A stretch of DNA of 24,861 nt from Plicaturopsis crispa FD-325 SS-3 (Eukaryota > Basidiomycota > Agaricomycetes > Amylocorticiales > Amylocorticiaceae), in contig KN832577.1 of the NCBI GenBank assembly GCA_000827205.1, positions 223,105 to 247,965 of the forward strand. The letters are read 5' to 3'. The translations under genes were made by a program, and so were the position numbers. Below are positions 1,146-23,420 of this stretch, one piece after another. The notes below the pieces were generated by a model. It was not told the origin of the DNA. It worked only from the letters and a program-made list of their open reading frames with translations, and made no database searches. Within the stretch, counting starts at the first letter, position 1, and every line of letters starts with the position of its first letter.

Positions 1146-2639
1146 TTACTGACGGCGCTGCGCCAAAACCCGCTCCACCGCGTCTTTGGGCAGGGCCGCG
1201 AGATCGACCCACACGCCCCCCGCGTCGAAGAGATCATCAACGATGACCTCGAACGACTCGCGTAACGCGACCAGGGACGCTCGAGCGCCGTCAACGTCCG
1301 CCTGCTCAACGCAACGTCCAACAGCCGCGACATCGCGCGACAAACGACGGAGGCGCACGCCAAACGCAACCATCTGCGAGGCCGCACGCCGGCGCACCGC
1401 GTCCAGATCCACCGCGGCTAGAAATCGACACGGGTCAGCCTTATACCGACACCGACGAACGCGAAAGAACTTACCTCGCGCCTGTTCATGGACGCGCATG
1501 CGATGCACCTCCACGTCAACAGCGTCGCCGCTATCCAAGGTGGGCGCCGGGGGCAAACCACGAACAAGCTCCGCCACTTCATGACGCTGGGCGAGCTCGT
1601 CCTGCAACACATCGCGCTCGCGCTCCACCGCTGCGAACTGCTCCTCGAGACCGACGACGCGATCCACGAGCTCACGCATCTCGCGCACCGACTGCACACG
1701 GAAAGCGGACGAGTCCGCCCTCTGCTGCCGCAGCAGATCCTGTGCACTGCGCGCGTCATCACGGGCGCCCTCGTAACGAGCCAAGAGCGCGGCATAGTCG
1801 GGCGCGACCGACAAAGCACGAGGAGAAAGCGCAGGACCAAGACCCGCGGGCAACGACTCCGCGCCCGCCTGGACCCCCACCGCCCAAACCGGGCGTCGCG
1901 GCGTAAGGACGACGCGCAGAGACGCCTGAGCGATCGACCGCAATTGCGCGACCTCGCGCTGCGCCGCATCATACTTCTGGCGCGGCACAGACGTCAAAAG
2001 CGCTGCCTGCGCCGATAGGAGCTCGGCACGCGCTTCCGCCAACTGCGCACGGAGAGTGGCGGACGCCTGCACAAACTCGTCGGTCCGCTGGATGTTCTCC
2101 GACTCCAGGCTCGCGTTGCCAGCCGCCTGGTTGTCATATGCGAGGGACTTGGCCGCGAGCGCCTCCTTCGTAGCACGGAGCTCGCGATCCAATTGGCCAA
2201 CGCGGTCCTGCGACGCCGCGAGAGTGAGCTGCGACGCGGTAAGGCGTTGCTGAAGGTCCGTCGCGCGAGCTTGGGAGGGCGCAGCAGCCGCTTCAGCCGT
2301 ACGACGGGCCTTCTCCGAATCAACCCACTTGGCCGTGAGCGATTCGACCTGCGCTTGCAAGTCGCGATTGGTCTGGCGCAACTGGCGAGCGCCGACACGG
2401 AGACGGTCGTTGTCGGTGTGCAATTCCGCATTTTCCGCACGAAGCGCTTGCAGCGCCTGGAGCTCCTCGGCGTACTCCTCGTCCAACGAGCCGAAGATCG
2501 CCTCCTCCGACGGCGAAGGCGGGGCTTGCTCGGTCGGGGGCGAGGGGCTACGCGGCGTGCGCAAAGTCAGGCGCAACTGCAGCGACATCCTCAGCACGGA
2601 CGCACCACAGAAAACGGGGCTTACGTACCTTTTTCGCGA
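1146..2639 (-). pseudogene. element-borne antisense gene, coiled-coil half (copy A)
   Basis: This is the C-terminal half of the opposite-strand gene of element A. After a Pro/Ser-rich start, it encodes a long charged region (roughly 2490-1480) with heptad-like spacing of Leu, Ala, Glu and Arg, most likely a coiled coil. A region shared with copy B follows, including DLLRQQRAD, DRVVGLEE and VDVEVHR. Two intron-like GT...AG intervals of about 50 bases (near 2577-2628 and 1428-1474) sit at the same places as in copy B. The last exon ends with a stop at 1146. The N-terminal half lies at 6557-7437, beyond the DNA transposon that splits the gene. I do not recognise the family by name. The coiled coil suggests self-association, by inference. 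Confidence 0.7.
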
Positions 2640-2647
2640 CCGGAGCC
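2640..2647 (+). repeat. target site duplication, left copy
   Basis: CCGGAGCC here matches 6557-6564 exactly and brackets the 3.9-kb DNA transposon. Eight bases fit hAT or KDZ-type insertion. Seven bases is also possible, because the outermost base is ambiguous with the inverted repeat. Confidence 0.75.
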
Positions 2648-2810
2648 AGCTGATGCTGTAGTATTAATACATTGAGCCCCTGCATGATCTGAAATTGCTA
2701 ATGCACCATTTTCTGGATCATGCTGGTCCGAACTTTAATGCATTGCAATTCTCCAAGGCTTTTCCCTGCCACTGTCCGGCTCCCCGGCTTGGCTTCTGAC
2801 TTCGAAAATT
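2648..2810 (+). repeat. left terminal inverted repeat
   Basis: Matches the reverse complement of 6396-6556 with scattered substitutions and small gaps. The best blocks are near the tip, around 2684-2702, and around 2780-2800. Confidence 0.75.
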
Positions 2811-3289
2811 TTCAACTCCCTGCCTCGGACTACCAAATTGCTTTCGGAAAGGTCCGGCTATGTGCACGGGCCTCACCTGTACTCGCCTACCCTTCCTCAA
2901 TCACCGGCTACGTGCACGTGACCTTTTCGATAACGCACGCAACAGTGCACTGGGGCTATTCGAATATTTTTCCGATTTTTCCGATTTTTTTTTGTTTTTT
3001 TTTCTCTCTCTCTCCCTATCTGTCATGGTCTGCACTCATTGAGCACAAGCAGGGGTGTGAAAAGTATTTTTATTGAGCAGTATGTGTACAGTAAGCAAGG
3101 TATGTAGCAATAGTAGAGGAAGAGAAAAAATGCCATATATGTGGGCATGCACGAGCGCGTCGGCACGACGCGGGCACCGCAGCACCGTGGGAGTGATGAG
3201 AAAGCGGGGTAGGCGACATGGGGAGAGCGCCATGGGCGTGTTGTCGAAAGCGCGGGATGCCCTAGGCAGCGCGGAGCCAGCGTACATGG

Positions 3290-3775
3290 CGCGGGACGGG
3301 CGTGGGATTGACGTGGATAGCGCGGGACTGGTGTGGACGGCGCGGGGGCTAACGCGGACGGCGCGAGGGCTAACGCGGACGGCGCGAGGGCTAACGTGGA
3401 CGGCGCGGGGCTGGCGTCGACGTCGCGGGGCTCGCCTAGTGGCGGGCTCGCGTAGATGGCGCGGTGCTCGCATCGACGTCGCGGGGCTGACGTGGATGGC
3501 GCGGGGGCTGACGTGGACAGCGCGGGGGATAACGTGGATGGCGCGGGGACTAACGTGGACGGCGTGGGGGATAACGTGGATGGCGCGGGGCTGGCGTCGA
3601 CGTCGCGGGGCTAACGTAAATGGCGCGGGGCTGGCGTCAACATCGCGGGGCTAACGTGCACAACGCGGTGCTTGCGTCAACGGCGCGGTGCTCGCATCGA
3701 CGTCGCGGGGCTGACGTGGATGGCGCGGGGGCTGACGTGGACGGTGCGGGCTCACGTAGACGGCGCGGGGAGGAG
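3290..3775 (+). repeat. left 21-base minisatellite
   Basis: More than twenty degenerate units of the form GCGCGGGGCTGACGTGGATG, mostly 20-21 bases. Because the unit is near 21, the plus strand stays open and would read a heptad such as TARGLTW repeatedly. I do not regard this as a gene. Units are GC-rich and vary mainly at the fourth or fifth G of the run and at CTGACG versus CTAACG. Confidence 0.8.
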
Positions 3776-4109
3776 GTGGACACAGCGGTGCGGGAGAGCG
3801 CGTCGCTCCTCCCAACCCCGTTTGTTGCTGCTCCTGGTGGGCTGTCCGCACTACTCCAGAGCGAGCGCCTCGCACTCGCCCGCATCTCTCCATGCGCCTG
3901 CCTCCGTCCATCGCCCTGCCTGGTCCTCCTGGCGCGGGCTTGCGTTGTTTGGCTGCACGCGGCCGGGCTCTGTCCCTCCGTGGGTTTGTGGCACTGCCAG
4001 ACTCGTGGCGGGATGTGCGCGTGTGGTGTGGGTGGGTGGTGTATGTGGGTGCATGGGTGGTGTGGGTGGGTGGATACCGCTCGGCGTGGGTGTGGTGCGC
4101 GGTGGGCAG

Positions 4110-5287
4110 GTGACGTGGCCTGCAAAATTGTCGTTAGCGCGAGAACTAACGGTTGGAAAACCGAAAAAACTTACAAATTAGTGAACATACCAAAAAGACA
4201 CCCCCGCGCGGAGTTGCGGGGGGGATCGACGTCGCAGCGAGCTGGGACGCGGAGGATATGGGCGACGACGATGAGGAAGGGGGAAACAACGACGACGACG
4301 AAGGTTTCGGAGATTCAAACTCCGCCGGCTTTCGCCGCGCTGGCTGTCGACGACGTCGAGCCTCTTTCCTCAGGCTCCACCGCATGTTTTTTCGTCCTGT
4401 AAAATACGTTCTGGCATCGAATATACTCGTAGATACCGTAGATTAAATTTCAGATTTTCTTGATGCCTGAGGAAGTGTAGGGAAACAAAAATGCACCGAA
4501 AAGTCGCGAACCACCGTATTTTGACGGGCGCTTCGCGTATAGCAGCTCACCCTCTTCATATCGCGCTCCGAAAAAATTGGATTCGTGTTCAGAGGGCTCG
4601 ATTACAGCCCCCATGAATTTACAGAAAAGATCCAGCCAATGTACCCAGAGCAAGAGAAGAAAATTGCTTTGTACGCACTAGAATCGTCGATCCCGAATGC
4701 TCGGAATTGTCGATTCTGGTGCGTACAGGGCCATTTCCTAGTCCTACACTGGGCACATCAGCTGTATCTTTTCTGTACATTCATGGGGGCTGTAATCAAG
4801 CCCTCTGAACACGAATCCAATTTTTTCGGAGCGCGATATGAAGAGGGTGAGCTGCTATACGCGAAGCGCCCGTCAAAATACGGTGGTTCGCGACTTTTCG
4901 GTGCATTTTTGTTTCCCTACACTTCCTCAGGCATCAAGAAAATCTGAAATTTAATCTACGGTATCTACGAGTATATTCGATGCCAGAACGTATTTTACAG
5001 GACGAAAAAACATGCGGTGGAGCCTGAGGAAAGAGGCTCGACGTCGTCGACAGCCAGCGCGGCAAAAGCCGGCGGAGTTTGAACTGGCCAAACCTTCGTC
5101 GTTGTCGTTTCTCCCTTCCTCATCGTTGTCACCCACATCCTCCGTGCCCCAGCACGCTGCGACGACGCCCCACCCCCCGCAACTTCGCGCGGGGGTGTCT
5201 TTTTGGTATCTATTTTCATTTGTAAGTTCATTCATTTTTCTAACCGTTGGTTCATGCGCTAACGACGTTTTTGCAGGCCACGTCACA
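4110..5287. repeat. 1.18-kb near-perfect palindrome
   Basis: The two arms, about 4110-4697 and 4699-5287, are reverse complements with scattered differences, meeting near 4698 with almost no spacer. The GTGACGTGGCCTGC left edge pairs with GCAGGCCACGTCAC on the right. The segment around 4440-4620 pairs almost perfectly with 4775-4950, so both arms encode the same short peptide in opposite directions. The outer parts (4150-4330 against 5070-5230) have more differences, including GAC/GAG triplet-length changes. Such a structure could form a large hairpin or cruciform. Confidence 0.85.
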
Positions 5288-5489
5288 CCACTCACCGCAT
5301 GCCATCTGCCGCACCCCCCCTCCCCACGCGCAACACCTCCAGTCCCGCGCATTTGCGCTCTCGCCGCCGCCGCCTTTATCTACCCCGTCGCCGCGCCATT
5401 TCCATGCGAACGTGAACACCCTCCGCCTGCTGCATCCATGAGCCCCGACACCACGGCTATCAAGCGACGCGCACAAGCACAACGTGCAG

Positions 5490-6120
5490 GCCAGCACGCC
5501 CCACAGCACACAGCAAACGGAACCCCATCGCGCGGCCTGCGCACCCCACAGTACCGCCACCGCACCCCACCGCGCGGCCTGCACATCCCACGGCACCACC
5601 AGCTCCCCCCGCGGCATTGTCTGCGCACTTCACAGCAGACGGCACCCCACGCCAGTGCCTGTGCATCCCACGGCACCGCCAGCGCACCACACAGCGCCGT
5701 CAGCGCATACCACCGCGTGGCCTGCGGTCCCCACGACCCCGCTAGCTCCCCACAGCGAACGGCACCCCACTGCGCCGTCAGCTCCCCCACGCGGCACCGT
5801 CTGCGCACCCCACAGCAGACGGCAACCCACGGCACCTCCAGCGCACCCCCCGGCGAACGGCACCCCACCGCGCCGCCAGCTCCCCCACGCGGCACCGTCT
5901 GCGCACCCCACAGCATTGCCAGCGCACCCCACGGCAACACCATCTCACCCCACAGCGTCGCCAGCGTACCCCGGCGGCGCCGCCTGCGCACTCACGGTGG
6001 ACGGCACCCCACGGCATTGCCAGCGCACCCCCCGGCGAACGGCACCCTGCGGTACCGCTGGCGCAACCCGCCGCGTGGCCACCCCCCTCCCCCCGCGACA
6101 CCGTTTGCGTACCCCACGGC
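5490..6120 (+). repeat. right 21-base minisatellite
   Basis: Degenerate units like CACCCCACGGCACCGCCAGCG repeat here, most with a period near 21 bases, giving an open frame with HPTAPPA-type heptads. The units are not simple reverse complements of the left minisatellite, although both sit at matching distances from the palindrome. I do not call a protein. Confidence 0.75.
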
Positions 6121-6395
6121 GCCTGTGTGCTATCCCCCACATGCACCGCCTTTCCAGTGTCCTCATGTGTACCGGCCTCGTGGCCATTCTCTATTGTATC
6201 ATATGTAGTACTAATTATATACTATGTTTTCCCCTCTCATTGACTAGTCCCCCCTACAGATTATAATCATTTTTTTCTTTTTTTTCACAAATTTTCGAGT
6301 GCAGGGGGTGCTTTCGCGCGGCAGGAAAAAATCACGTGACCCTGCGGGTCCGTGCGTATGAGCCAGAGGGTGCGACAGGTAGGGAGAGAGAGAGA

Positions 6396-6556
6396 TTTGA
6401 AAGTCCGAAGCCAAGCCGGGCAGCCGAAGAGCGGCTAGGGAAAGCCCTGGAGAGTTGTAATGCATTAACGATCGGACCGGCATGATTCGGAATATGGCGC
6501 ATTAGCAATTTCTGATCATGCCAGAGTTTTAATTTATAACACTACAACATCAGGTG
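6396..6556 (-). repeat. right terminal inverted repeat
   Basis: Partner of 2648-2810. The tip reads CACCTGATGTTGTAGT on the minus strand, against AGCTGATGCTGTAGT on the left. Confidence 0.75.
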
Positions 6557-6564
6557 CCGGAGCC
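6557..6564 (+). repeat. target site duplication, right copy
   Basis: CCGGAGCC, identical to 2640-2647. Confidence 0.75.
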
Positions 6565-7437
6565 AACGATGCCTGGGACACATCCTGCATCATCGACGGA
6601 CCGGCCTCACCCTGCACGTCCACCGACGGCTCTCGGACCCGACGCTTTCCCAGCGACTTCTCGGACGGCGTGTCCTTGGCCGCGCGACCGCGAGTACGAG
6701 GGCGGGACGCGGAAGCACTGGCGACCACGGGCTGCTTCTTTGAGGTGCGACGAGCACGCTTGGGCTTCGCGGGGCGCGCGCCGGCAGGAATCTCCTTCTC
6801 GCGCGTCGCATAGAAAAATCCTCCAGGAAACGAGCAAACTCCCCACAACCGCCCAAATCGGCGATCTCGGGGTCCTTCTCCATGTTCTCGCAAACACGCC
6901 ATTCATGGAAAGACTGAATGCGCGAACACGGCGAATGGAGGGTGTCGCACGGGACACACTTCGCGCGATCGTACTGCACAACGCAGTCACGACCCTTCTC
7001 CGCGCAATGCAAACAGCCCTACCATGTCTTGTCAGAACACAGGAACACGCCAAAGGACCAACGCGACTTACTACCAGACGACCGGGGCCGGCATTGTACT
7101 CCTCGACGCCGCACAGACGATCCGTGGTCACCCACGAACGGAACCGAGCGCGCTGCTCCCAAGTTATCTGGGGATCTTTGACCCCTTGCTGGAACGGGAC
7201 CTGGTTTTTCGACACCATGAAGTTCTCCTTACCCGTCTCAAAATCTGTGGCCCTCCACTGCGCGGGCAAACCCGACGCAGACGTGACTGCAGGCGACGAG
7301 GGCGCGTTTTGTTCCTCCTCACCCTCCTGCATCGACGCGTCCACGTCTTCTTCATGCTCCGGCGGTGACGCGCCTTGATCCTCCTCGCGCCCCGGCGACG
7401 ACGGGTCTTGCTCTTCAAAGCGATCCTGCGACGACAT
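6557..7437 (-). pseudogene. element-borne antisense gene, Zn2Cys6 half (copy A)
   Basis: This is the N-terminal half of the antisense gene of element A. The start is taken at 7437, where ATG is followed by Ser-Ser-Gln as in copy B (15219). The first part is acidic and Pro/Ser/Glu-rich. A block follows with DFETG, FRSWVTTDRL and GPGRLVVS, shared with copy B. After an intron-like interval near 7019-7071 comes C-X2-C-X6-C-X8-C-X2-C-X6-C (about 7015-6926), an exact Zn2Cys6 binuclear-cluster pattern. A basic linker with Arg-Thr-Arg-Gly and Gly-Lys-Arg motifs follows, suitable for nuclear import or DNA contact. The DNA transposon separates this half from the coiled-coil half. Confidence 0.7.
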
Positions 7438-7737
7438 CTTCAAGCGCTGTACTTGGGCGTAGCGAGGGTCTCGGCGATTATTGTCGTTGACGGCGGCAAT
7501 GAGCGAGGCAAGCTCGGATCGGGGAGAGCGTTCGGCAGCGGCGACAAGCGCAAGTTCAACTTCAAGCTGCGAACCGGGAGGAGGAGGCAGCATGCGACAG
7601 AGAGACGCGACCACACCAACGAAAATTTGAACAAGTCCAGTTTCCCACGCCACCGCAGCTAGCGCCCAAGCACGTATCCATGACGTCTGGGGACACGCGG
7701 CGCCGCTGCGGCCTTAGGCGCTCACGGGGTTCACGCC

Positions 7738-7750
7738 TTGAGGGGGAGAC
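7738..7750 (+). promoter_or_regulatory. polypurine tract of element A
   Basis: TTGAGGGGGAGAC lies just before the 3' LTR. The minus-strand counterpart in element B (14934-14921) reads CTTGAAGGGGGGTAC and is followed at once by TGTCACGACC. In Ty3/gypsy elements this tract primes plus-strand DNA synthesis. Its position between the antisense gene and the LTR fixes the element's direction. Confidence 0.65.
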
Positions 7751-7895
7751 GCGACTCGCGAACCAGCACAACGATCAGACGCACGAACCGCCACTACGAA
7801 CCGCGCGACTCCGATAACAACTGAACATCACGACATCGGACCGTACACCCCCCTCGGACCGGTCCGCTGCCGACGGAAAGGCCATGCAATCAAAC

Positions 7896-7978
7896 CATCA
7901 ACACGCGCCCCGTGACCCACGCGACCCGCCGACACGAAGTCTCGCGTATCACCGACACGTGTATCACTCGCATCAAAA
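7896..7978 (-). promoter_or_regulatory. two conserved U3 blocks with E-box (element A)
   Basis: Two blocks are conserved against element B inside otherwise diverged U3. One (7955-7978) contains AGTGATACACGTGT on the minus strand with a CACGTG E-box core. The other (7896-7912) reads GGGGCGCGTGTTGATG on the minus strand. They lie upstream of the antisense gene, so they may belong to its promoter, to the LTR's own, or to both. Confidence 0.5.
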
Positions 7979-8159
7979 GCAATGCACGTCGACCCTACGC
8001 CCGCCGCGACTAACGCCAACAATGGAAACTGAACGAGGAGTCATCCTCGCGTATCGCCAGCACCCCGGCACCGACATACACGTTGACGCCTCAAGGACGA
8101 TACCGTGCCTTTATCTTTATATCCTTTTGGACAATTCCCCTTTTCTTGCTCTCCACTCG

Positions 8160-8167
8160 TATAAATA
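8160..8167 (+). promoter_or_regulatory. TATA box in LTR of element A
   Basis: TATAAATA in the LTR, about 410 bases after its start, at the place expected for the sense promoter near the U3/R border. Confidence 0.5.
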
Positions 8168-8839
8168 CCTCTCGACGATGTACATACTCCTTATACTTTA
8201 AATTGTGTTTATCTCACTAAACTGCGTTTCGCGACTTCGTCTTGTCGTCCCCTCCTCACCTCTCGCTCCTACGCGTCTTCCCCGGTTGACTCTAGTCCCG
8301 GGTCCCTTATCTGTCTCCTTATCTAATCTCTCTGCTTGTTTCTCTCTCCTCCCGTCGCTCGGCTCTCTAACCTTGCTGACTAGCTTCCTCTCTCGCTCTC
8401 CCGTCGCTGGGCTCCCTTCTAACCGCGTCTAACTACTGACTTGCATCTTATCTAGCCTTAACCTCTCTCGCTCCTAGCCGCGGCGTCCCCGCGACTTGTC
8501 CCTTTCATCTCCTCTCCTCCGCCACTTCACCACGGCTTCACCTCGTCCCCTCCACCCACTCGCGACTCCAGCCGCAACTCCATTCCTCGCCTCTTCCCTT
8601 CGCGATCGTCTCAGCGAGTCCGCAGAACCCGCTCCGCCGAAACGCGACAGTCTAGTGAACCTTCGGTTCTGATCCTCACACCACGGTCCTTGCACCGTCT
8701 GCCCTCGTATCGGGTCGCCTGGCGAGTTTTTCCACTTTTACCTCTTTTTACTCCTTTACTTTAGAGGTTTAAAGGCCTCGACCTTTTCTTTGGTCGGGTC
8801 CTTACAACATGCTCATTCACGACGGCCGGCGTGGAAGAA

Positions 8840-8921
8840 TACGGTGAGCCGCTAGCGCCTCGCTTATAATCGATTGTAAGCAAATATAATTGCCGGAGGT
8901 CCTGGGTTCAATTCCCGCTAA
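8840..8921 (+). other. tRNA-like fragment, resembling intron-bearing tRNA-Ile(UAU)
   Basis: A pol III B-box-like GGTTCAATTCC lies at 8905-8915 in a plausible T-arm. Upstream, CCTCG-CTTATAA (8858-8869) looks like an anticodon arm with UAU. After about 24 bases that could be an intron, GGAGG could close the arm apart from one pair. The D-arm is poor and I cannot pair an acceptor stem, so this is a decayed tRNA, the head of a SINE, or chance. Confidence 0.35.
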
Positions 8922-8929
8922 TGGAAAAC

Positions 8930-9546
8930 ATTTTGCAGGCCTGACAGACAAAGGATGTGTGCGGGCACCCCTCATATTCTGTCAGGATGTGTGGACCAGT
9001 CGAAAGACAGTTCAAGTTTGCGGTGGCCGTACCTACAACAATCCAAAACTTCAACTTTGAGGTTATCGAATACAAGATGCTGTGTGGGGTAATAATCTGG
9101 CCGCTTCTCGTCCTTGACCTTTTGTCCAAGGAGCAGGTTGACAGTGCGGAAGGAAGAGATGTCATCAATACCCGCCCCGCCCCAGTGAGTACGCAACATG
9201 CGCTTCAAGTTGGCCCAGCCCATATGCCATAATTAAATCAGCGGTAAGACCCAACCATAATTTGAATATCCGGCGTGGGGGCACGTCGCAAGGAACTTCT
9301 TCAGGACACGCAGTTTTTCCACCGTAGATTGATAACCACGCCACCGATTAACACCAAAAGACACGCAACTTCCTCCTTTGTAAGGTCCAGCTGCTTGGCG
9401 AGATCGTCGAGGACATAGGCATTCACATTCTCCCCGGTGACACCTTCGTTGAAATTTGACGTAGCGAGAGAGAGAGAGAGAGAGGGTAGATGCCCAACTT
9501 CCGACCATGGCGCATGTGGTGGATGGCTAATGCAACAATGCAACAT
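8930..9546 (-). pseudogene. protein-like fragments, unrecognised
   Basis: The minus strand holds two stretches that read like ordinary protein: one about 9460-9310, including LDDLAKQLDLTKEEVACLL, and one about 9223-8972, including DDISSFRTVNLLLGQKVKDE. They are in different frames with no convincing introns between them, so if coding they are a decayed gene. A short (AG)n tract at about 9464-9485 precedes the first. I do not recognise the family. Confidence 0.3.
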
Positions 9547-9640
9547 GAAGGCGTAGCTCTAGGACTTCCGGTGCCGCTTAGTTTCCCGAGAGTTGGTACA
9601 TGGTCCACCAAGATCAAAGCACAATGAAGTGCTAGTGTCT

Positions 9641-9952
9641 TGTTGAGCTTCCTCCAATCGACGCGGTCGTTGTTTTCGGTTATTGTTTTCTAAGAAACCT
9701 ACCCTAGATCTAGTCGGGTCAAACTTGTTGTTTTATTGTCTGGCTGCACTCGTAGCGGTTAGGCTTTGTGGTCCACACGCGTGAGGACTTCACCTCTCGT
9801 GCTGTCCCTTATATATTGATATATTGTACAGTACATGTATCTGGTCTATTCTACTTTGTTCTCCAAGAGTCCGGCGCTTTCCTGCTTAGTCAGCACCTAC
9901 CATATCGGGTATGCGCCACCGGGGATGTACCCGGATCGCATCCCTACTAACA
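9641..9952 (+). repeat. possible solo LTR (copia-like size)
   Basis: The 312-base stretch starts TGTTGAGC, ends CTAACA and contains a TATATATT box near 9808, as a small LTR would. I see no flanking target duplication and no primer-binding site, so this is a weak call. Confidence 0.25.
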
Positions 9953-10268
9953 AAACTATCATCACCAGACTACAAATCTAGTCGTTCGAGGGCACTTGTG
10001 AGAAAGGGAAGTTCTAAGGCAAATAGATTCAGAGCAGCTAAACTAACTACTTACAAATGTTCTTACTGTGACTAGGACTGTAAGAACCAGAATACAAGAC
10101 TGTCTGTGAGTGACAGCAAACTACGGTATATGAACTACGGTCGTATACGGCAATAACAAAAATACTTTAAACTGATTTTCCTACTTACGTTTCGGAATGG
10201 CGGGCGTTAATGATTCAAATGGTCGTAGGGCCAAAGATGTTTTAAAAATGACCTGGTGAATGACCAGT
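9953..10268. other. no gene seen
   Basis: AT-richer sequence with no convincing open frame, repeat pair or RNA gene. A short inverted pair, TTCTTAC (about 10055) and GTAAGAAC (about 10080), can form a small hairpin. Confidence 0.4.
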
Positions 10269-10374
10269 GGTAAGGCCACCATAAATTTGGGTGGTGTTTT
10301 GTAAATCAGTTTGTGGGTTTGCGGTGTTTGGCAGTGGGTTTTTAAAAACCCCTGCAGAGACTGGTGGTCTTACC
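10269..10374. mobile_element. 106-base MITE-like element
   Basis: GGTAAGGCCACCA at the left end and TGGTGGTCTTACC at the right end are inverted repeats with one mismatch in 13. The inside is GT-rich with no coding. No clear target duplication was seen. Confidence 0.5.
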
Positions 10375-10899
10375 CGCCTCGGGCCCTGCACCCCGCGCCC
10401 CCTCAGTACAGCGGTCAACGGATCGTGCACCGTCACCTCCGTGCACGTCTCTGTCACGACCCGACCATTTCTCCACTTGCGCACATGTCCCGGGACTTCC
10501 TTCTGGGACCTACCTATGACGCTCTTTTTGACCGCGCTTCGATCCCTCAAGCATCCCGGACCCTTAACGCTTCGTTCACCTGCGCGTTTCGGCCCATTTT
10601 GCGTTGATTCAACCTCCGGGACCGTTTCGCCGCTGAAGCGCGACTTGGGCGCACTGCAGGACATCCCCGCGCGCGACCTCTAGTTCGATCCCTGAGGCTG
10701 CGCTTGGGTCCCTATAGCGTCCTTGGCCTCTAAACCCCTTGTCCACCTGCGCGTTCTCATCAGCAAAACAGCCATTTGGTCATAGTTTTATAGCACACCA
10801 TAGTAAGTCATAGTAAAATAACCTGTTCTCATAGTTGCCATAGACACTTCATAGCACCATAGTACTCCCCAGTGCTAGCTAGTTACACCTCAGATCTGT

Positions 10900-11940
10900 A
10901 CAGTGCATATAATGTTCTTGACAGTACTTCATATCTCTGTATCTCCGAACGCCATCGTCAATACTCAAAGCAGCAGCTCCGCTCACTTGAGCAATATGCA
11001 CTTGCTGGTCACAATGGATTCCCGCAGTCTGCCTATACTTGACTCAAAGACCTGAACGAAAACTACAAGCAAAAATTATGCATTGATCTCGAGTAAAAAA
11101 CATTGTCAGGGTTGAGATTTTATATGAACCAGTGGCATGATAGCGAGCACGCTATCCGCCGTGAAGAGTGTCGAGGGTCAGCTACAAGTAGTTACCTATG
11201 ATGTGTCTAACACAGTGACAGCATTGCGGTGATATGCAAGCTAAGCAAGAGCTTGAGGCAGGTTAGCAGACAACGCTGGAAGAAAAGGTATGGAAACATA
11301 CATGGCCGCGTATGTATACGTTTCACGGGTGCACCCAGTGACGGTAAGGAGGCACTTCGTCAACGTTCGTCAACGGCGGACGCGCCTCTGGCATCACAAA
11401 TATGCATGCGCCGACAGATCGACGAATTGCGCGAAGGCTGTATGTGACGGATGTCCGAAGCCGGGTCGGGCAGTGGGAAGAGCCGTCGATGCGCAAAGCT
11501 GTTGAAGTAAACGAGGGGGTCTGCACCGAGACTGCGAGACTGCGTAGGCAGAACGGTACTACGCGGCATGCATAGACACAGCGTCGCGATACCTGACGAA
11601 TTTCTTTGTTTCTAAACTCGCAAAGGTCCCAGAAATGTAGATCAGGCGTACCGGGATGCGTAAAGCAGCTGCTGTAGAGGGTCCACCGCTGATTATCTGC
11701 CGTCAGGTTCCCGTTCCCACTGCATGTGTACGCTGCGCTAGCCTCCGAGCCCGTGCCGTGGTGGCCTACGCGCCGTTCCGCGTAGCCCATTCTGTCACTT
11801 TGCGGTGCTATGCCGTGATTGTCGCTAACGTGCATCGGAGCGCGTGGTGATGGGAGTCCAGCGCTCAGCGGTGGTATGAGAACGTGAGCAGGAGGGGCAA
11901 GAGAGGGTGAGCGACAATGGACATGCTCGAGAGTCGAAAC
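10900..11940. other. no recognisable gene inside the 2.1-kb element
   Basis: The only long frame is a minus-strand run of about 235 codons (11323-12030). It has no domain that I recognise and an amino-acid make-up rich in Ser, Pro and Arg. I do not call it as a gene. Confidence 0.35.
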
Positions 11941-11949
11941 TTGCTTGAG

Positions 11950-12588
11950 ACTTGGAAAAAAGTTGTGCAGTGGCTGAGGCGACGTGGCCGTGGCCGCGGT
12001 GTGGCGTGAGAATTCAAAACAACTCCGCACACTTCAACTCGACGCGACGACTTGCGAGTTTCCTCTCCAGTTTCCCTCTCTCTGTGTCGTTTCCCAAGCC
12101 CTCACTGTTTGCCTCGACGCTCTTGCATCCTCTGCTCTGGCCCTCGCTTCGCCCGCCCTTCAATACTCAAGACGGCACTGATTGCAACCGCTGGCTCCCA
12201 CTGTGTTGTGCACGCGCCAGCGCAACGCCCATTCTGGAGGTATGTAAAACATTTGCCTCCGTGGCTTGTGAGCATCTCGCGTTAACCAAGCCCGTCGCTC
12301 ACCAGAGTAGCCCTCACGGAACCCTATCACTTGCTTCGTTCAAGTTTTGGTAAGTGTCTCGTTCATTTGTGTTGCACATCACGACTGATGCCCCACATGT
12401 TTGTAGGTACGGTGTGGTGGTTTGTACGACTTCCCAGTGAGTTGGACCTTTGTTGGCCTATCACTTCAGATTGCTAATACCTGTTGGAACTTTTGTAGAA
12501 TATGCCACCGCCGGCTGGTTTCCATCTGCGTGCCTCCGTTTGTTACCGCGTGGCCCGGGTTCAGTTGTATGAGTACTGTTCAATGTAG
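11950..12588 (+). pseudogene. intron-bearing gene start or remnant inside the 2.1-kb element
   Basis: Three close intervals have strong fungal intron signals: GTATGT...CACCAG (12240-12304), GTAAGT with CTGAT and TTTGTAG (12350-12407), and GTGAGT with TGCTAAT and TTTTGTAG (12438-12499). The pieces between them are only about 30-46 bases. An ATG at 12502 opens only a 28-codon frame (MPPPAGFHLR...), ending at 12588. This looks like the spliced leader and first codons of a gene, possibly a lost transposase or a captured host 5' end. No domain is visible. Confidence 0.45.
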
Positions 12589-13465
12589 CTTTCTAGGTTC
12601 AATATATTCTGCTTTTGTTACCTCCTAGCCATATATGAAGAAAGACTGTTAGAATCTGCACAACTTGATTATTATGATCATAGTGAGGTATATATAAGAA
12701 TATTGTATTTCTTAGCAGTGCTGTATAGTGCAGTTATGTGACTGTCCAGTACTATGAGATCTAGGGCACTATGGGGCTACTATGATGTTACTGTACAGTG
12801 CTGGCAAAACCCCCACCTTCCTATGAGAACTATGACACTATGAGGACTGTATAGTGCTGTCCAATGCTGGCTAATGTGCGGCTGTTTTGCTGATGCTGGC
12901 CCAGCTTGTGTCGTTCAGCCTCCAGGCTTGTTTCGCCAGCCACCTCCGCAGCAGCTAAAGTGTGACTTGGGCGCACTACGGGACATCACTGATCACTGTG
13001 CAACCTCTAGTTCGCTTCCCGAAGCTGTGCTCGGGTCCTTATGGCGTCTTCGGCCTGCAAACACTCTGTTCACCTGCACATTTTGGCCCTCTTGCCTCTT
13101 TCAGCCTTTGCGACTGCTCTACCACCTCCGCAGCTGCGGCACGACTTCCCTGCATGACTTAATGGCATTGCATGCAACCCCCCAGTCCATCACACGTCGC
13201 CCCATGTTGACCCCTTGTGTCTATGCGCCACAACTCCGCTTCCCTCGGCACCGGTCCGCGGCTTCGGAGCATCACGTGATTTCGTCGCGCGACTCCCCCC
13301 TTGGTCGCGCATCACCTCGTGTTGGCTGTATTGCCCTTTATTCCCTTATTTCGCATTTACCCTTGATTTCCTCCACATGTATCCTCGTTCCTCTTCCCCA
13401 TTTCACATTCTCCACCTTAGGAACTCTACACCTTACCTTCTCACCATCATCCCATCCATTTTTCG

Positions 13466-13472
13466 TATATAA
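13466..13472 (+). promoter_or_regulatory. TATA box in the 10452-14023 LTR
   Basis: TATATAA lies in the LTR about 560 bases before its end, matching the placement of the TATA box in the LTR of element A. Confidence 0.45.
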
Positions 13473-14096
13473 GTCAGCTGGCATGTACATAGTTCGACAG
13501 ACTTAATATTGTTGTGATCTCTCCTCTTGCTTAGTGTCCTTGTCTCAATGCTTGCTTGACTTTTGCCGGTTCTGTCCCTGTTTTTCTCGCGCTCCATCAC
13601 GACCAGGTTCCACCCTGACCCCTTTGCGCTCTGTCGCGACCTCTGCGTTCCATCGCCACTCTCCTGCGCTCCAGCGCCACTTCCGCATCCCATCGCGTCC
13701 CCTTTCCCACACTCTAGAATACCCTCGCGTCCTACCACGACTTTTTCCCGCGCTCCGCCGCTTCCCTGTATTATTTCCGCCACTCTTCTGCCTTTGCCGC
13801 ACCTCTCCTGCGCTCCACTCCGCCGCCACTCTCGCGTCTCACCGCAACTTTTTCCCACGCTTCGCGACTTCTACCGCGTCCCGTTGCATCACTCCGCCAC
13901 GGTCCTTGCACCGTCTGCCCTCGTATCGGGTCGCCTGGCGAGTTTTTGCCACTTTTACCACTTTTACTCTTTTTACTTTAGAGGTTTAAAGGCCTCGACC
14001 TTTTCTTTGGCCGGGTCCTTACAATCAGGGTTTGTCTAGGAGAAATCAGAAAAGCATATCCTGGTCCAGTACTTGTGGGATGCGCGGTGCGCGAGT

Positions 14097-14148
14097 TTTT
14101 GATGCAAGTGATACACGTGTATCCGTACCACGGGGGCGCGTGTTGATG
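14097..14148 (+). promoter_or_regulatory. conserved U3 blocks with palindromic E-box (element B)
   Basis: GATACACGTGTATC at 14110-14123 is a perfect 14-base palindrome around CACGTG, inside a 24-base block that differs from element A at one position. GGGGGCGCGTGTTGATG at 14132-14148 is the second block. Both lie upstream of the antisense gene. Confidence 0.5.
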
Positions 14149-14318
14149 ACTTGGGGAATTGATTGGATTGTGTTCCCGTACAGCCGGCCCATATCGAGCA
14201 GAATGCGCGGGCCGGATTCGCATACTCGGTGTTGTGTTGATCTCCCGAGGGTTCGGAGTGCTGGATCTTGCGTGAAGTGGCTGATCCATGTCGTGTAGAC
14301 GTATCTGTGTAGTGTAAG

Positions 14319-14883
14319 ACTTGCCCTAAGGCCTTAATAAGGGCACCCCTCGCGTCTTAAGGCTTAATAAGGGTTCAAAAGGCTCAATGTGCTAAGGGCT
14401 AAGGGCTTAATAAGGGTGGGTCACAAATAATCGAATTAAATATTATTTACCATATGGCTGCGGGAACTCTTCGGCCTCGACTTCAGTAGCGCTTCAACCC
14501 GGCGTACTGTGAGATTGCTTCACTTGGGCTTTAGGGACACACCTGCTAGCACTGAACCTCAGCTAGGGTGTGCCCAAAACCTAGGAGATCCTATAGATAA
14601 TAATTAAATATTCTACTTATCTACTTAAGGCCTTACTTAAGGCCTTAGCGCAAACAGGCCCCGGGAAGCTCACCCATTTCCGTGTCTGCCGAAATGGCCA
14701 AATTTGGCCCTCAAATATGCTATAATTTTGGCCTCAAATATGCTATCCGGACAAGGAAATGGCCAATTTTGAGCCCTCAAATATGCTATTCTCGGACACG
14801 GAAATGGGTGAGCTTCCCGGGGCCTGCGCAAGGCCTTAATAAGCCTTAACATTTACAAGGTTTAGCCCTTAGGGCAAACACTG
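14319..14883. mobile_element. hAT-like MITE in the LTR of element B
   Basis: GTGTAAG is duplicated at 14312-14318 and 14884-14890 (7 of 8 bases if extended). The right end reads CAGTGTTTGCCCTAAGG inward; the left reads ACTTGCCCTAAGG and is slightly shortened. Several copies of CTTAATAAGGG or its complement lie under both ends. The CAGTG tip and the 7-8-base duplication point to hAT. No coding is present, and a palindromic MITE is nested inside. Confidence 0.7.
14654..14825. mobile_element. palindromic MITE nested in the hAT-like MITE
   Basis: About 170 bases form a fold-back: AGGCCCCGGGAAGCTCACCC at the left pairs with its exact complement at the right, and the pairing continues through CATTTCCGTGTC. 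Three copies of CTCAAATATGCTAT fill the middle. GCGCAA flanks it on both sides (14648-14653 and 14826-14831), a likely 6-base duplication. Confidence 0.75.
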
Positions 14884-14920
14884 GTGTAAGTCTGCGAGCG
14901 CGTTGGTACGGGTCGTGACA

Positions 14921-14934
14921 GTACCCCCCTTCAA
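14921..14934 (-). promoter_or_regulatory. polypurine tract of element B
   Basis: Reads TTGAAGGGGGGTAC on the minus strand, followed directly by the LTR start TGTCACGACC. It establishes that the plus-strand gene beside it is antisense to the element. Confidence 0.7.
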
Positions 14935-15218
14935 GGTGCGAGCCCCGCGAGCGCTTAAGTCTGCAGGGCCGCCGCAGGGCCGCAGCTCTTTTGCGGTCAG
15001 GGTCAGTGGGCGCTTGTCGCGGTGGCGTGGGAAAATGGACTTGCGAAAATTTTTGTCGTTGTCGTCCGCCTCCTTGTTGAATGCCACCACCTCCCTGGTT
15101 CTCAACTCGCGACTGAGCTCGCACTTGCCGCGCTTCGGTCGAACTCGACCTGCTGCTGGCCGAGGTTGCTGCAAAAAATCGTCGCGATCCCCGTTACGCT
15201 TTCGTGCAAGCCCGTAAG

Positions 15219-17587
15219 ATGTCCTCGCCCCAGCCCGGTTTTGACACCGTGTCCACGCATGGGGAAGCTGCGCCAGAGTCCAGCGAGGCCGCGCCTTCGC
15301 CGAGCGGGGACGCGCCTTTGCCGAGTGAGGCCGCGTCGTCGCCGAGTGAGGCTGCGCCGTCGCTACATGAAGCCGCGTCTCCGCTGGGTGAGGAGCTGGC
15401 GCCTGACGTCGCCGACCCCGGAGTATGGTTGGCCGAGGATTTCGAGACTGGGAGCCTCAACCTTCTCGTGCCCAAGAATGTGATCAACGATCAGGAAGGC
15501 GTCCAGGACGACTCTATCAATTGGACCCTGCGCCTCCGCTTTCGGTCCTGGGTCACGAACGACCGCCTGTATGGCTGTGAAGCGTACAATCTTGGTCCGG
15601 GTCGCCTAGTGGTGAGTCGCTCCGAGCTCGATCGCCCTGTTTGTGCTGATATCGCTTCGTCCCCAGGGTTGCTTGACTTGTCCAAAGCAGGGCAAGCGAT
15701 GCTCGGTCACCGCTGGGTCGGCCAAGTGCTATCCGTGCTCGAGGTCGCGCATGCAGTGCTCGCGCCTCCAGTCCTACCATGATTGGCGGATCCGCGAGCA
15801 TATGGATGAAGACTCCGCGTTCGTGGCGTTGGGCGGGAGCGCGCAGTACGAGCGCTTCCTGCAGGACCTTTACGCAACGAAAAGTCTCGTTGCCCCGCCT
15901 AGCGCCCAGCCGCCGAAAACGAAGAAGGCGCGTGGTCCGTCGAAGAAGGCTGCGCCGCCGGTAGCGCCTGGTGGTGCATCCCCGCCGCGCACGCGTGGTC
16001 GTGCTGCCGCTGCTGGGCCCTCGGTCAAGGCCCTCGGCAAGCGTCCAGCGCGTGAGCCGTTCCCCGAGGTTGAAGGAGCAGCGAGCGCATCGGCCGTCCA
16101 GGGTGCGCCGCGTGTGTCCGATTCGCGTTCGCGGAAAAAGGTGCGGTTCGCCCAGCGCTTGTTAGTTGGTTGCTGGCTGATGTGCTCTGCTGCAGGCGCG
16201 TCTTATCCCGGACACGCCACAGAGTCCTCCTCCCGATGCGACAGAGGACGTGACCCCACCGCCGGCGGATTCGATCCTCGGCGATCTTGATTTCGACCTC
16301 GACGTGGACCTTCGGGAGCTGCACGACACTCGCAGCGCCAATACGCGCCTGCAGAAAGACAACGACAACTTGCGCGCCATGCTTCGGCAGGCGCGTGAAG
16401 CTGGTCGGGACCTCCAGTATGAGCAGGCCACCCTGCAAACATCGTTGCAAGCGGCGGAGCAGGCGCGTCTTGCCGCTGAACAGTCGGCGCGTCCTGCGCA
16501 AACCCGGGCCACGGAACTTCAACGCCGCCTCACCGCCACAACCGGAGCTCTCACGGCGTCTCAAGATCAGCTCGGCCTCTTACGCGCTGAGCTTCGTGAT
16601 ACGCAGGCAAGCCTGGCCGCCGCGGAGAAGAAACTCGCGGACACGGAGGAGAGGCTGCGGGTGTTGCAGGTGTGTTACAACAACCAGGCTAACGCCACGG
16701 TTGGTGCAGAGGCGGAGCGCGATGAGATCGACCTCGAACGGGCTCGCGCTGCCGTGCGTCGTGCCACGGTTCACGATGCCCGTGAGCCCCCGTACGAAGG
16801 TCGTCTTGCCCAGGCGCGGCCCGAGACAACAGATGCGTCCGGCACTTCGACGCTCGTTGTCTCTCTCCGCGCTCAGATTACCGACCTCGAGCGATCGCTT
16901 GCGCTGGCGCGCGAGGAGGCCGAGGAGGCCGCGGATGCGCCGTTCGTGGAGTTGCGCGAGCGTTACGAGCGCGCCAGTGAGGAGGTGCAGGCCGCGCAGG
17001 CGCTTCTGCGTCAGCAGCGCGCAGATTTTTCGGATTTCCGCCGTAAGTCCGCGCGAGAGACCGCGGTCCTCGCCGATCGTGTTGTCGGGCTCGAGGAGCA
17101 CTACCACGTGCTGGAGAGGGAGTGTGACGAGCTCCAGGAGGAGTTGTCCCAGCGAAGCGCTGTTGTGGATCTGGTGCGCGACCTTCCGCCATCGGGAGAC
17201 CTCGACGATGCCGATTTTGTCGACGTCGAGGTGCATCGTGCTCGTGTCCGGGATCAAGCGCGAGGTGAGTCCATTCGCGCTTTGCCGTGTGTTCTTGTCG
17301 CGAACTGATGGTTTTCGTCGTTCCAGCGGCCGTCGAGCGCGATGCTCTGCGTCAGCAGGCTGGTTCGCTGCTGACAGGCTTCTTCAAGCGCATCGCGAAG
17401 CCTGGATAGCGCGATCGGTCTTGTTGAGCGTGCTGACGTCGATCAGGCCAGCGTCGCACTCGCCGATATCCGCGGCGCGTTTGTCGCGCTCCTGAGCAAC
17501 ATGCTCGAGCAGGGCGCGGCGTGGGTGGATACCGCGTTGTTGCCTAGCGACGCGTCGGCGGGTGTGCTGGTGCGCTTCGGGCAGTGA
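15219..17587 (+). pseudogene. element-borne antisense gene: Zn2Cys6 and coiled coil (copy B)
   Basis: This uninterrupted second copy shows the whole layout. ATG at 15219 is followed by Ser-Ser-Pro-Gln, then an acidic Ala/Glu/Ser/Pro repeat-like region and the DFETG...FRSWVTNDRLYG...GPGRLVVS block. After an intron-like interval (about 15612-15666) comes C-X2-C-X6-C-X8-C-X2-C-X6-C at 15670-15759, the Gal4-type zinc-cluster spacing. A Lys/Arg-rich linker with PPRTRGRA follows. After a second interval (about 16141-16195) there is a long coiled coil with many Glu, Arg, Leu and Ala; a third interval is near 17265-17326. The stop at 17587 ends a tail shared with copy A (ADVD, WVDTALLP). The copy looks old, with few breaks. 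A DNA-binding, self-associating protein is inferred; no family name is known to me. Confidence 0.7.
15670..15759 (+). other. Zn2Cys6 binuclear cluster, copy B
   Basis: Six cysteines are spaced 2, 6, 8, 2 and 6, all kept in copy A (7015-6926), while most residues between them differ. In fungi this cluster binds DNA, usually CGG-type half-sites. The block SR[L/I]QS[Y/F]H[D/E]WR follows in both copies. Confidence 0.75.
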
Positions 17588-17823: not shown

Positions 17824-18090
17824 TAGACTCGAGCCAGTCAAAATTTTACAGCCGACACTCGAAGATAGTCGTTCGAGTTGCCGAATCCGAGCCACAAAAC
17901 GACTATCTTTTGTGTAGCGTAGTTTTCGGGCACTGGTTCGAGTCTAGGAATTCAATGAAAAATCTTTGGAGAGTGAGATCAGGCAATCAGCAAACCTGCG
18001 GCCGTCTGAATCGTCTTGGCCAAGCTAGACTCGAGGCAGTCAAAATGTCACAGCCGACACTCGAAGATAATCGTTTGAGTTGGCTGGAAG
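17824..18090 (+). repeat. tRNA-like (SINE-like) repeat, one copy plus a partial copy
   Basis: TAGACTCGAG.CAGTCAAAAT starts at 17824 and again at 18026. The first copy runs through ACGACTATCTTTTG and an A-box-like TAGCGTAGTTTTCGG to a B-box-like GGTTCGAGTCT at 17935-17945. The second stops at about 18090, where a DNA element begins. A third copy of the latter half lies at 21392-21455. The A-to-B distance is short for a tRNA gene, so this is at most tRNA-derived. Confidence 0.5.
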
Positions 18091-18401
18091 GGGACTGGAG
18101 CATAACGCGGCCATTTAGGACGGTCAAAGTTCCGAATACCTTCCGGCCATCACATGACCAGAATAAAATGGACTTAGAAAAAATCGAGCACACTTGAAAT
18201 TCAAACTCGTTGGATCGTATTTCTGAGGAGACAGAAAGTCTCGCAATGTATTCGCCAAGACGCCCCCGAAGTTTCGAGACGCGAAGCAACATTTTACGCG
18301 TGTTAATCTCGAAACAACGACTCAACCTGAACATTTACCTCGTTCACCCCCGCGCTCACCTCACGACGCGCGTCCATCTCTGAACTTCATCTTACGGCCT
18401 T

Positions 18402-21317: not shown

Positions 21318-21391
21318 ATTCTGGTCATGTGATGGCCGGAAGGTATTCGGAACTTTGACCGTCCTAAATGGCCGCGTTATGCTCCAGTCCC

Positions 21392-21455
21392 GAATCCGAG
21401 CGACAAAACGACTATCTTTTGCGTAGCGTAGTTTTCGGGCACTGGTTCGAGTCTA
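21392..21455 (+). repeat. tRNA-like repeat, right copy
   Basis: CGAATCCGAGCGACAAAACG through the B-box-like GGTTCGAGTCT (21444-21454) matches 17882-17945 closely. It continues the repeat that the 18091-21391 element entered. Confidence 0.55.
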
Positions 21456-22849
21456 TGGCCAAGAGCAATAAGAGTGAGAGTGATCAGACTCTCAGAACTG
21501 ATGTCTGGCGTAAGCTATGTACCTCTCAGTCAGACCCGAATTCCTGGACCAAGATGGATTAAGACCCATTCAAGGACACAGTTCAGGGTTTCCGCTGCGA
21601 AAAGGCGGGCTGCAGCACGATCGTCTTGTTTAAATGTCACCACGCTCAACGTCCCGTAGAAAGAGTGGGCCGAGGGGGTGCTCAATGATATCGCGCAGCA
21701 TGGCAAAATGAATAGGGAAGTTGCCGATTGTGAGTGTACGTGCGCCGCTTTGGGGCTGGTTACGACCTGTCTTCCTCGCATGCTTGGAGTCCTGCGTATT
21801 GATGACAGGGTGGTCGTAGAAAAGCGGTACATCGAAGTTGAGGGAGCAGCCGGGTACGGAGTTGGGGATTTGGTAGTGACAAACAGAATGTGCATGAGCG
21901 GCAACAATCTGTTGTAGAGCGCGCTCTGCCTCTGTGCCGTCTGCAGCAAAGGACGTTGCATGCAGATTTTCGTCGTGCATCATCGAAAAATGCATTTCTG
22001 CTAGTGCCTCTGTTGACTCTTTTCCGTCGCGCGCAACTGCAGCCAAAAGGATAGGGGGAATCTTCGGCAGTGGCAGTGGGATGGTTAGCACCCAGATCCG
22101 TAGCTGTACGATAATGATGGTCAGTAAGCAGGACAATAGACTATCACAACACAAGTCAGTCGCACCTTTTTTGCTTTATCCAGACGCGCCTGTAGGCCCA
22201 TGCGCGGCTCCAAGGACAAGCCACGCCGTCTTCGACTCTTGCCAGATCGACTAAGCCTCGAGATCCCTATCGTCCCAAGATAAACCAAGAGGGCAATGAT
22301 AATCGAGATTTCGTAGGCTCTGCTTTGCGAGCCTGATATTGTTGCGCGAGAATCCAGGTTCGAACCGTGGCTACTTGGAGGGAAGATTTCTGTGATCGGG
22401 ACGTCAACACATGTTTCCAATGTGAGTGAAAAATCTTACCGAATGCTCCTGATTCCTCTTCCGCCGAACTGGTTCTGAAAAGTCTTGTATGCGCGAGGAG
22501 AGATTGAGGCAAGCATACTACAAAAGGTGTCCAACGCGCCGGACATGTTCCGGAGGCTCTTTCCCTTCAGTAACCGTTCAGTTTTCAGTACCATAGCCTC
22601 TGCCATGCCCAGAACGACCTCCTGGGATTTATAGACCCCAGCTGCCGCACCCTTTGCAAATCGTAGCCATGGGGTTTGACCGTTATCCTAGATGTTGACA
22701 CATGAGTACAAACCTCAGTGACACTTCAGAAAAACACATCACATACCTCAAGTGAAGACGAATCACTGTTGGTGTCTTCAAAGCCTTCGGATGACTACAG
22801 ATGATCAGTTAGTAACGTCAGAAGGCACATATGAGTGGAAAGCGTACAT

Positions 22850-23420
22850 TGCTGTGGTGTTGCAGTGTCTCCCTCCGATAAACAAAGAAACCACCATATG
22901 CTCCGCCGCATATGTCGCTTGACTCCAAGGAGCGTAACCGAGATATATTCAGATGTGAGTGTGCTCAAATACACGACACCACAGGAATTGCCGTCGTGCT
23001 GCTGAGGCATGCGGATAGCCCCAATATCTACCAGACTGGTACTGGCAATGTCCGAGTGGAGAGTGGATAGGAACCACTCAAGGAGTGCGACATCGTTGAG
23101 GCTGGCAGTCGCCGTAGGGTTGTATCCGTCGCAGTATGCAATTGTATTGTGCCCTAGATCCACGCGCGCGCCGGCCCAATGCCCAGCTGGGTTGACAGGA
23201 ACTTCCACGATGTCAACATGATCCGAAGAGATAGCTTTGTCGAGGGAGGAGGACTAGCGGCGCACGTAATCATCGTTGGCCGCACGCGTATTACGAAGGG
23301 AGTGCAGCAGCAAGCAGTTGGCAACCATGACTCGGCTGCCTTGGCCTAACTAACGGACAATGAAGTCACTGCCCGCGTTCATCGTGTCGTCGTTGAGCCA
23401 ATCATCTCACAAGAACGCTG
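22850..23420 (-). other. Ulp1-like (C48) cysteine peptidase domain
   Basis: In order: WLNDD, VEVPVNPAGHWAGARVDLG, IAYCDGYN and PQQHDGNSCGVVYL. Known Ulp1 proteases use His (HW), Asp, Gln and Cys (in D/N-S/D-CG) in this order and cut ubiquitin-like tails. All four are present by eye. The domain is interrupted by stops, so it is unlikely to be made whole. Confidence 0.75.

Follow-up and report, generated by a model that had tools for sequence, protein, structure and literature searches.

Two element remnants with a homologous antisense gene

The stretch of Plicaturopsis crispa FD-325 SS-3 DNA analysed here (24,861 nucleotides, hereafter the window) forms the end of contig C24 and contains the remnants of two long terminal repeat (LTR) retrotransposons, elements A and B, each accompanied by a homologous zinc-cluster-like gene on the opposite strand. 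Comparisons with the genome covered 33.2 Mb in 49 contigs, and all match counts given for it are lower bounds. The fungal peroxidase extension domain had eleven matches, as would suit an agaricomycete that degrades lignin. The antisense gene is real and forms part of this LTR-element lineage. The stop codons of its two copies in the window, gene A and gene B, are the outer limits (1146 and 17587) of the region described first.

The 3' end of the element A pol lies on the plus strand at 1-613, where it changes frame and encodes the C-terminus of the integrase, including an SH3_Tf2-1 domain, and a chromodomain (approximately 410-562). Gene A follows on the minus strand (1146-7593); an insertion splits it, and the reading frame of its exon 2 is broken. 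Exon 1 (7072-7593, 522 nt) encodes a conserved block with the motifs FETG and FRSWVT.DRL and has the same length as in C25a, a third copy described below. It is followed by the 53-nt intron 1 (7019-7071, GTAAGT..TAG) and by the part of exon 2 up to the insertion (6557-7018, end approximate), which encodes a cluster of six cysteines (Cys6). Exon 3 (1475-2576, 1102 nt) encodes a coiled coil and the motifs DRVVGLEE and VDVEVHR; intron 3 (1418-1474, 57 nt) and exon 4 (1146-1417, 272 nt, up to the stop codon) complete the gene-structure reading on the same strand. The LTR of element A (7746-8680, plus strand) lacks the first bases next to the polypurine tract (PPT) and shares 84% identity with the C25a 5' LTR. 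Gene A and pol are thus arranged tail to tail with 0.53 kb between them on the chromodomain side, and the start codon of gene A lies about 150 bp (0.15 kb) from the LTR. This is the antisense position between the chromodomain end of pol and the PPT, next to the LTR, that had been proposed from the sequence-only reading.

The insertion in gene A is a transposon of 3.9 kb (approximately 2647-6556, no strand assigned) with 161-nt terminal inverted repeats, which is absent from another copy of the gene, D. It includes a near-palindrome with 430-nt arms (4267-4696 and 4701-5130, 92% identical), and sequences like its ends also adjoin the cut-off genes of two further copies, C30 and C25b.

Element B is recognised on the minus strand by a 3' LTR in pieces with an insert between them (14097-14920) and by a PPT with the PPT/LTR junction (14921-14935, limits approximate). 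Gene B lies on the plus strand at 15081-17587, with its start read at about 15081; its frame is broken in exon 1 and again in exon 4. Its gene-structure reading comprises intron 1 (15612-15666, 55 nt), exon 2 with the Cys6 cluster (15667-16140, 474 nt), intron 2 (16141-16195, 55 nt), exon 3 with the coiled coil (16196-17264), intron 3 (17265-17326, 62 nt) and the frame-broken exon 4 (17327-17587, stop codon 17585-17587). About 160 bp (0.16 kb) separate the start of gene B from TGTCACGACCCGTACC on the minus strand, which is preceded by a G-rich tract; this PPT/LTR junction recurs in C25a and C30. The genome-wide searches compared with the family places yielded 42 matches to reverse transcriptase (RT), 25 to the chromodomain and 25 to the C25a-type LTR, the one LTR type sought. 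On the right side of element B up to the contig end, none of the chromodomain or RT matches and no match to pieces of pol was found. The claim that gene B occupies the same place as gene A relative to its PPT and LTR stands; neither pol nor a chromodomain was seen next to gene B. Element B is tied to the lineage via its gene, PPT and LTR; it would be a chromovirus by this kinship rather than by a chromodomain of its own, and the copy may be truncated.

Both copies in the window are broken. Their proteins are homologous and well diverged, as had been noted, with 38-45% amino acid identity over the longer alignments, 61% in a single 36-residue piece and best E-values of 3e-60 to 4e-61. A single segmental duplication giving rise to both neighbourhoods was rejected in view of this divergence and of the merely short stretches shared outside the gene.

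A related element with open frames

Copy C25a lies on another contig (C25, approximately 237.0 to 226.2 kb, minus strand) and shows the order 5' LTR, gag, pol with chromodomain, antisense gene, PPT and 3' LTR, of which 329 nt are readable before a run of N begins. The gag frame is open over 456 amino acids up to the edge of the examined stretch, and pol is a frame of 1321 amino acids with the order protease-RT-RNase H-integrase and the chromodomain at the integrase C-terminus; the protease and gag matches are just under the Pfam cut-offs. The LTRs have TG..CA ends, as far as the readable 329 nt of the 3' LTR allow, and the pair is 99.7% identical over these 329 nt. By gag, pol order, chromodomain and LTR/PPT structure, C25a is a Ty3/gypsy chromodomain element (chromovirus).

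The antisense gene of C25a has four exons encoding 789 amino acids with no internal stop, and is the one uninterrupted copy found. Its three introns (53, 52 and 54 nt) are all GT..AG introns and all contain CTGAC; the start codon was chosen by similarity to the gene at 8 kb on contig C40. Exons 1, 3 and 4 of gene A have the same lengths as their C25a counterparts, despite a synonymous divergence (dS) of 0.64.

Distribution of the gene family in the genome

A search with the Cys6 region gave 19 matches, which correspond to 18 places. Three further queries, two using members of tandem arrays and one using the FRSW block, revealed no additional family place in the genome. The family thus comprises at least 18 places: 11 genes in tandem arrays, five copies at element landmarks and two that are undecidable. 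The landmark copies (A, C25a, D, B and C30) make up five of the seven non-array copies, and the gene is antisense in each; landmarks are present on both sides in A and C25a, on the chromodomain side in D, and on the PPT/LTR side in B and C30. An antisense coding region between pol and the 3' LTR is therefore found in A and C25a from both sides, and in D, B and C30 from one. The two remaining copies are C25b, whose LTR side adjoins a run of N, and C2, which has a related pol (93% amino acid identity in RT, 65% in gag). The genes of C30 and C25b are truncated. The expectation that homologues would repeatedly lie antisense at element landmarks holds within this genome for five of 18 places, but 11 of 18 have no detected element and two are undecidable.

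The next closest genomic match to the RNase H part of pol is 40% identical, so that in this genome the lineage has two members with pol and, in A and D, two remnants with a chromodomain. The antisense gene is present beside all four of these places if C2 is counted, and firmly beside three of the four, which is a small copy number. The gene is assigned to the lineage because slot, orientation and distances are the same in five copies of diverged subfamilies, a young element carries an uninterrupted copy, and the frame is under purifying selection (see below). The proposal that the gene travelled with the element lineage is supported by the same observations.

Chromodomain or RT matches were also recorded in open frames of about 2,570-3,380 amino acids, which exceed the length expected for gag-pol, on C20 (146-149 kb), C3 (1961-1964 kb), C2 (523-526 kb) and C22 (25-26 kb).

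Selection on the antisense frame

Ratios of nonsynonymous to synonymous divergence (dN/dS) were obtained from Nei-Gojobori counts with C25a as reference unless stated otherwise. Gene A gave a value of 0.15 (bootstrap 0.12-0.18) over 765 codons with no stop codon, two pieces of D gave 0.15 and 0.17, and C25b gave 0.16. For gene B, the value was 0.20 over the 102 codons reached by DNA alignment; by exon it was 0.35 (exon 1) and 0.30 (exon 3), while exon 2 was saturated. Gene B compared with C30 yielded 0.24, 0.25 and 0.18 for exons 1-3 at dS >1. The corresponding values for pol were 0.07 (C25a versus A, 203 codons) and 0.06 (C25a versus C2, dS 2.3). In a frame control with unspliced sequence, the coding frame of A had a dN/dS of 0.25 versus 0.39-1.74 in the other five frames, and that of D 0.26 versus 0.40-1.78, four of the five other frames being above 1 in both cases. 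A spurious open reading frame or a gene on the sense strand was rejected by this control for A and D. The antisense coding frame has a low dN/dS and the canonical introns match, so the likeness of A and B exceeds chance. Purifying selection has kept the antisense gene as the elements diverged.

This result bears on two other explanations. A transduced gene might be a neutral passenger without benefit to the element, and most copies are indeed broken, with one uninterrupted copy found; dN/dS values of 0.15-0.25 over deep divergence and the equal exon lengths make this already hard to hold and extremely improbable. Alternatively, the antisense transcript rather than a protein might matter, by pairing or interfering with the pol transcript and thereby limiting copy number. 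The gene and pol stops lie 0.53 kb apart in tail-to-tail orientation, so that the transcripts may overlap, but selection acts on the protein frame and the gene itself does not overlap pol, which leaves this explanation highly improbable.

Divergence is unevenly distributed along the elements. The pol ends of A and C25a differ at a dS of 0.18, their antisense genes at 0.64. A and D resemble a partial duplicate: the pol end is identical to about position 450, 99% identical to 600 and 95-96% to 900, with the gene at 75-90% and one window of 78% between. A and D each border a long run of N, and the patchy identity may reflect template switching, gene conversion or an artefact; it is not used for other conclusions.

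Cellular relatives and the origin of the gene

The tandem arrays are located on C3 (804-818 kb, five genes), C40 (three genes) and C44 (three genes). None of the RT, chromodomain and C25a-type LTR matches lies at these genes, C40 and C44 being short contigs. The possibility raised earlier that most homologues are single-copy host genes far from LTRs is thus correct in that 11 of 18 are unlinked to a detected element, but these genes stand in tandem arrays and are not single-copy.

Common to array and element genes are the block ahead of the cysteines and, besides the Cys6 cluster itself, a GG pair among other invariant residues. The cysteines of A, B and C25a are spaced C-x2-C-x6-C-x8-C-x2-C-x6-C, the spacing of the Zn2Cys6 class. 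The six cysteines, two glycines, one arginine and one aspartate are invariant in all 14 aligned members, with slightly different spacing in two of them. Intron 1 (49-58 nt) occupies one fixed place in 16 of the 16 members in which both flanks are available (five element copies and 11 array genes; D and C2 fall outside this test).

Three groups appear in the tree: the element genes (93/91), the C40 genes (81/84) and the C3/C44 genes (75/81). The tree is unrooted, has no outgroup and has three strong inner branches out of 13, and the attachment of the element and C40 groups is unresolved in it. Among non-element genes, those of C40 come closest to the element genes in search score. The genes of C3 and of C44 (10-19 kb) pair in the tree (C3_804 with C44_18k, C3_811/813 with C44_15k, C3_818 with C44_10k), and this pairing, the matching order and the great divergence would be compatible with an old duplicated locus or a very divergent alternative one.

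The short sequence GTGGGAANNTNNACTTG immediately precedes A, B, C25a and the three C40 genes, which account for six of its 13 exact matches in the genome, compared with one match for the reversed control; no exact GTGGGAANNTNNACTTG was found upstream of C30. It may be a remnant of the 5' flank of a captured gene, or a general element, since the other seven matches lie elsewhere. The C-terminal part differs in its relationships: with no convincing partners for exons 3-4 among the array genes, cellular relatives are established for exons 1-2 only, and exons 3-4 may have been replaced or may evolve fast. Viral contigs gave 31 pattern matches, none of which was confirmed, and a literature search for the cellular gene family found nothing.

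The direction of transfer could also be reversed, with the gene native to the element and the array genes being domesticated former element genes. A tree without outgroup suits this view, as do the C40 genes, which are nearest to the element genes by score and share the upstream sequence with them. On the other hand, the tree shows much greater diversity among the array genes than among the element genes, and the array genes stand in three tandem arrays at which no RT, chromodomain or C25a-type LTR was detected. A reversal of direction is accordingly considered decidedly unlikely.

Proposed role of the antisense gene

These observations make it somewhat probable that a cellular gene of Zn2Cys6-like/coiled-coil type was captured in antisense orientation and kept as an accessory regulator that probably binds DNA. 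A Ty3/gypsy chromodomain lineage would have gained a four-exon gene of the cellular family between pol and the 3' PPT, perhaps including a short stretch of 5' flanking sequence. The introns of an antisense gene present no splice sites in the genomic RNA of the element and would therefore outlast replication; their persistence follows from the antisense arrangement. Transcription presumably proceeds from the LTR-proximal side toward pol, and the conserved splice sites suggest that the transcript is spliced. The predicted product of about 790 amino acids would consist of the conserved N-terminal block, the Cys6 cluster and a long coiled coil, for which exon 3 gave coiled-coil-type matches. On the strength of this cluster and these matches, the protein may be nuclear, dimerise via the coiled coil and bind DNA. 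Its putative targets are the element's own LTR or the targets of the cellular relatives, and the outcome would be a tuning of the element's expression or silencing.

Several observations weigh against this picture. With respect to DNA binding, Pfam Zn_clus (PF00172) matched four of the 14 members at E up to 1, and weakly (best 0.0018); an AlphaFold model with two sequences was poor (mean predicted local distance difference test score, pLDDT, 54); and a PDB profile search gave one match at E 0.36. An excess of CGG..CCG pairs, as a potential binding site, was not found in the C25a LTR (eight pairs against a mean of 6.2 after shuffling, with 78 of 300 shuffled sequences reaching that number). Concerning capture, the unrooted tree leaves room for array genes derived from the element, and the best match of exons 3-4 among the array genes had an E-value of 0.062. 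As to maintenance and position, the C25b gene contains one stop codon and its frame control was not clear-cut (unspliced coding frame 0.49 versus 0.54-1.71, including 0.54 and 0.69), and the partial gene of C2 is separated from the chromodomain by 11.5 kb that include a run of N, and no LTR of matching type was seen.

A different target is conceivable. The protein might act on its cellular paralogues rather than on the LTR, with mixed dimers or competition with array proteins disturbing host function. The same cysteine cluster in paralogues of the same genome and the dissimilar exons 3-4 of the element gene fit such a role; a changed coiled coil may equally block mixed dimers. Overall, this alternative appears unlikely. 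Relatives outside the element and the shared intron make the origin of an antisense gene testable, and the gene illustrates a way for a retrotransposon to keep introns, namely by carrying the gene antisense.

Other features of the window

A direct repeat of 127 nt (8681-8807 and 13897-14024, about 95% identical) is located beside both LTR regions; it is not part of the C25a LTR, and a further 60-nt match to it was found on C25. A perfect 74-nt inverted repeat (18091-18164 and 21318-21391) has its arms 3.2 kb apart, and direct repeats at 17881-17946 and 21390-21455 lie near it, perhaps indicating another mobile element. A fragment of an Ulp1-type protease (Peptidase_C48, E 1.2e-5) is encoded on the minus strand at 22795-23253.

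Comparison with known systems

The protein resembles fungal Zn2Cys6 transcription factors (Zn_clus, PF00172) in the cysteine spacing of A, B and C25a, which is that of the class, and in the coiled coil downstream of the cluster. It differs from them in the weak Pfam matches of four of 14 members and in the conserved block and intron ahead of the cluster.

Antisense genes between pol and the 3' LTR are a recurrent feature of LTR elements. In plants, antisense open reading frames have been described in this slot; their origin and function are left open and a regulatory role is suspected (PMC7264820, PMC11963269). They are similar to the fungal gene in slot, orientation, presence across a lineage and suspected nature as DNA-binding regulators. 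In contrast to the gene described here, with its relatives free of detected LTRs and shared introns, the plant frames have no known relatives outside transposable elements (PMC7264820, PMC11963269). Furthermore, plant Retand is a non-chromovirus lineage, and the domain of the fungal gene is a Cys6 cluster. The likeness to the plant antisense TRP28 proteins concerns a proposed similar way of working and does not require relatedness.

In fungi, an extra antisense gene, brtn, has been reported for Boty-like elements of Botrytis cinerea by Zhao et al. 2011, as cited in PMC7264820, PMC8365987 and PMC4227169, and the Boty-like gag-pol contains a CHROMO domain according to PMC4227169. Boty therefore shares with the present lineage a fungal LTR element, a chromodomain in gag-pol and an additional antisense gene (PMC4227169, PMC8365987), a likeness drawn from the citing descriptions and not from protein sequence. 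The word 'antisense' is absent from the main text of PMC3248453, a study of fungal LTR elements, by term search. The literature searched, which lay mostly outside subscription journals, yielded no fungal LTR element with an antisense gene of zinc-cluster type or host origin. The earlier remark that no described fungal zinc-cluster case was known agrees with this search, but an antisense gene in a fungal element, brtn, was already in print; what may be new are the zinc cluster and the cellular relatives.

A further parallel is HBZ of human T-cell leukaemia virus type 1 (HTLV-1), described as a retroelement antisense gene transcribed from the 3' LTR side and encoding a leucine-zipper regulator of DNA-binding type. 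HBZ belongs to an animal retrovirus and has a basic leucine zipper instead of a Cys6 cluster, and no homology is claimed. If its product binds DNA, the fungal gene would be a counterpart of HBZ. More tentatively, and at somewhat short of an even chance, a whole intron-bearing host gene of transcription-factor type may have become an antisense, HBZ-like regulator through which the element could act on targets or partners of the array genes. Its cellular origin would be visible because relatives free of detected LTRs, with the same intron, exist in the same genome. These visible cellular relatives are the main gain over the antisense genes known so far.

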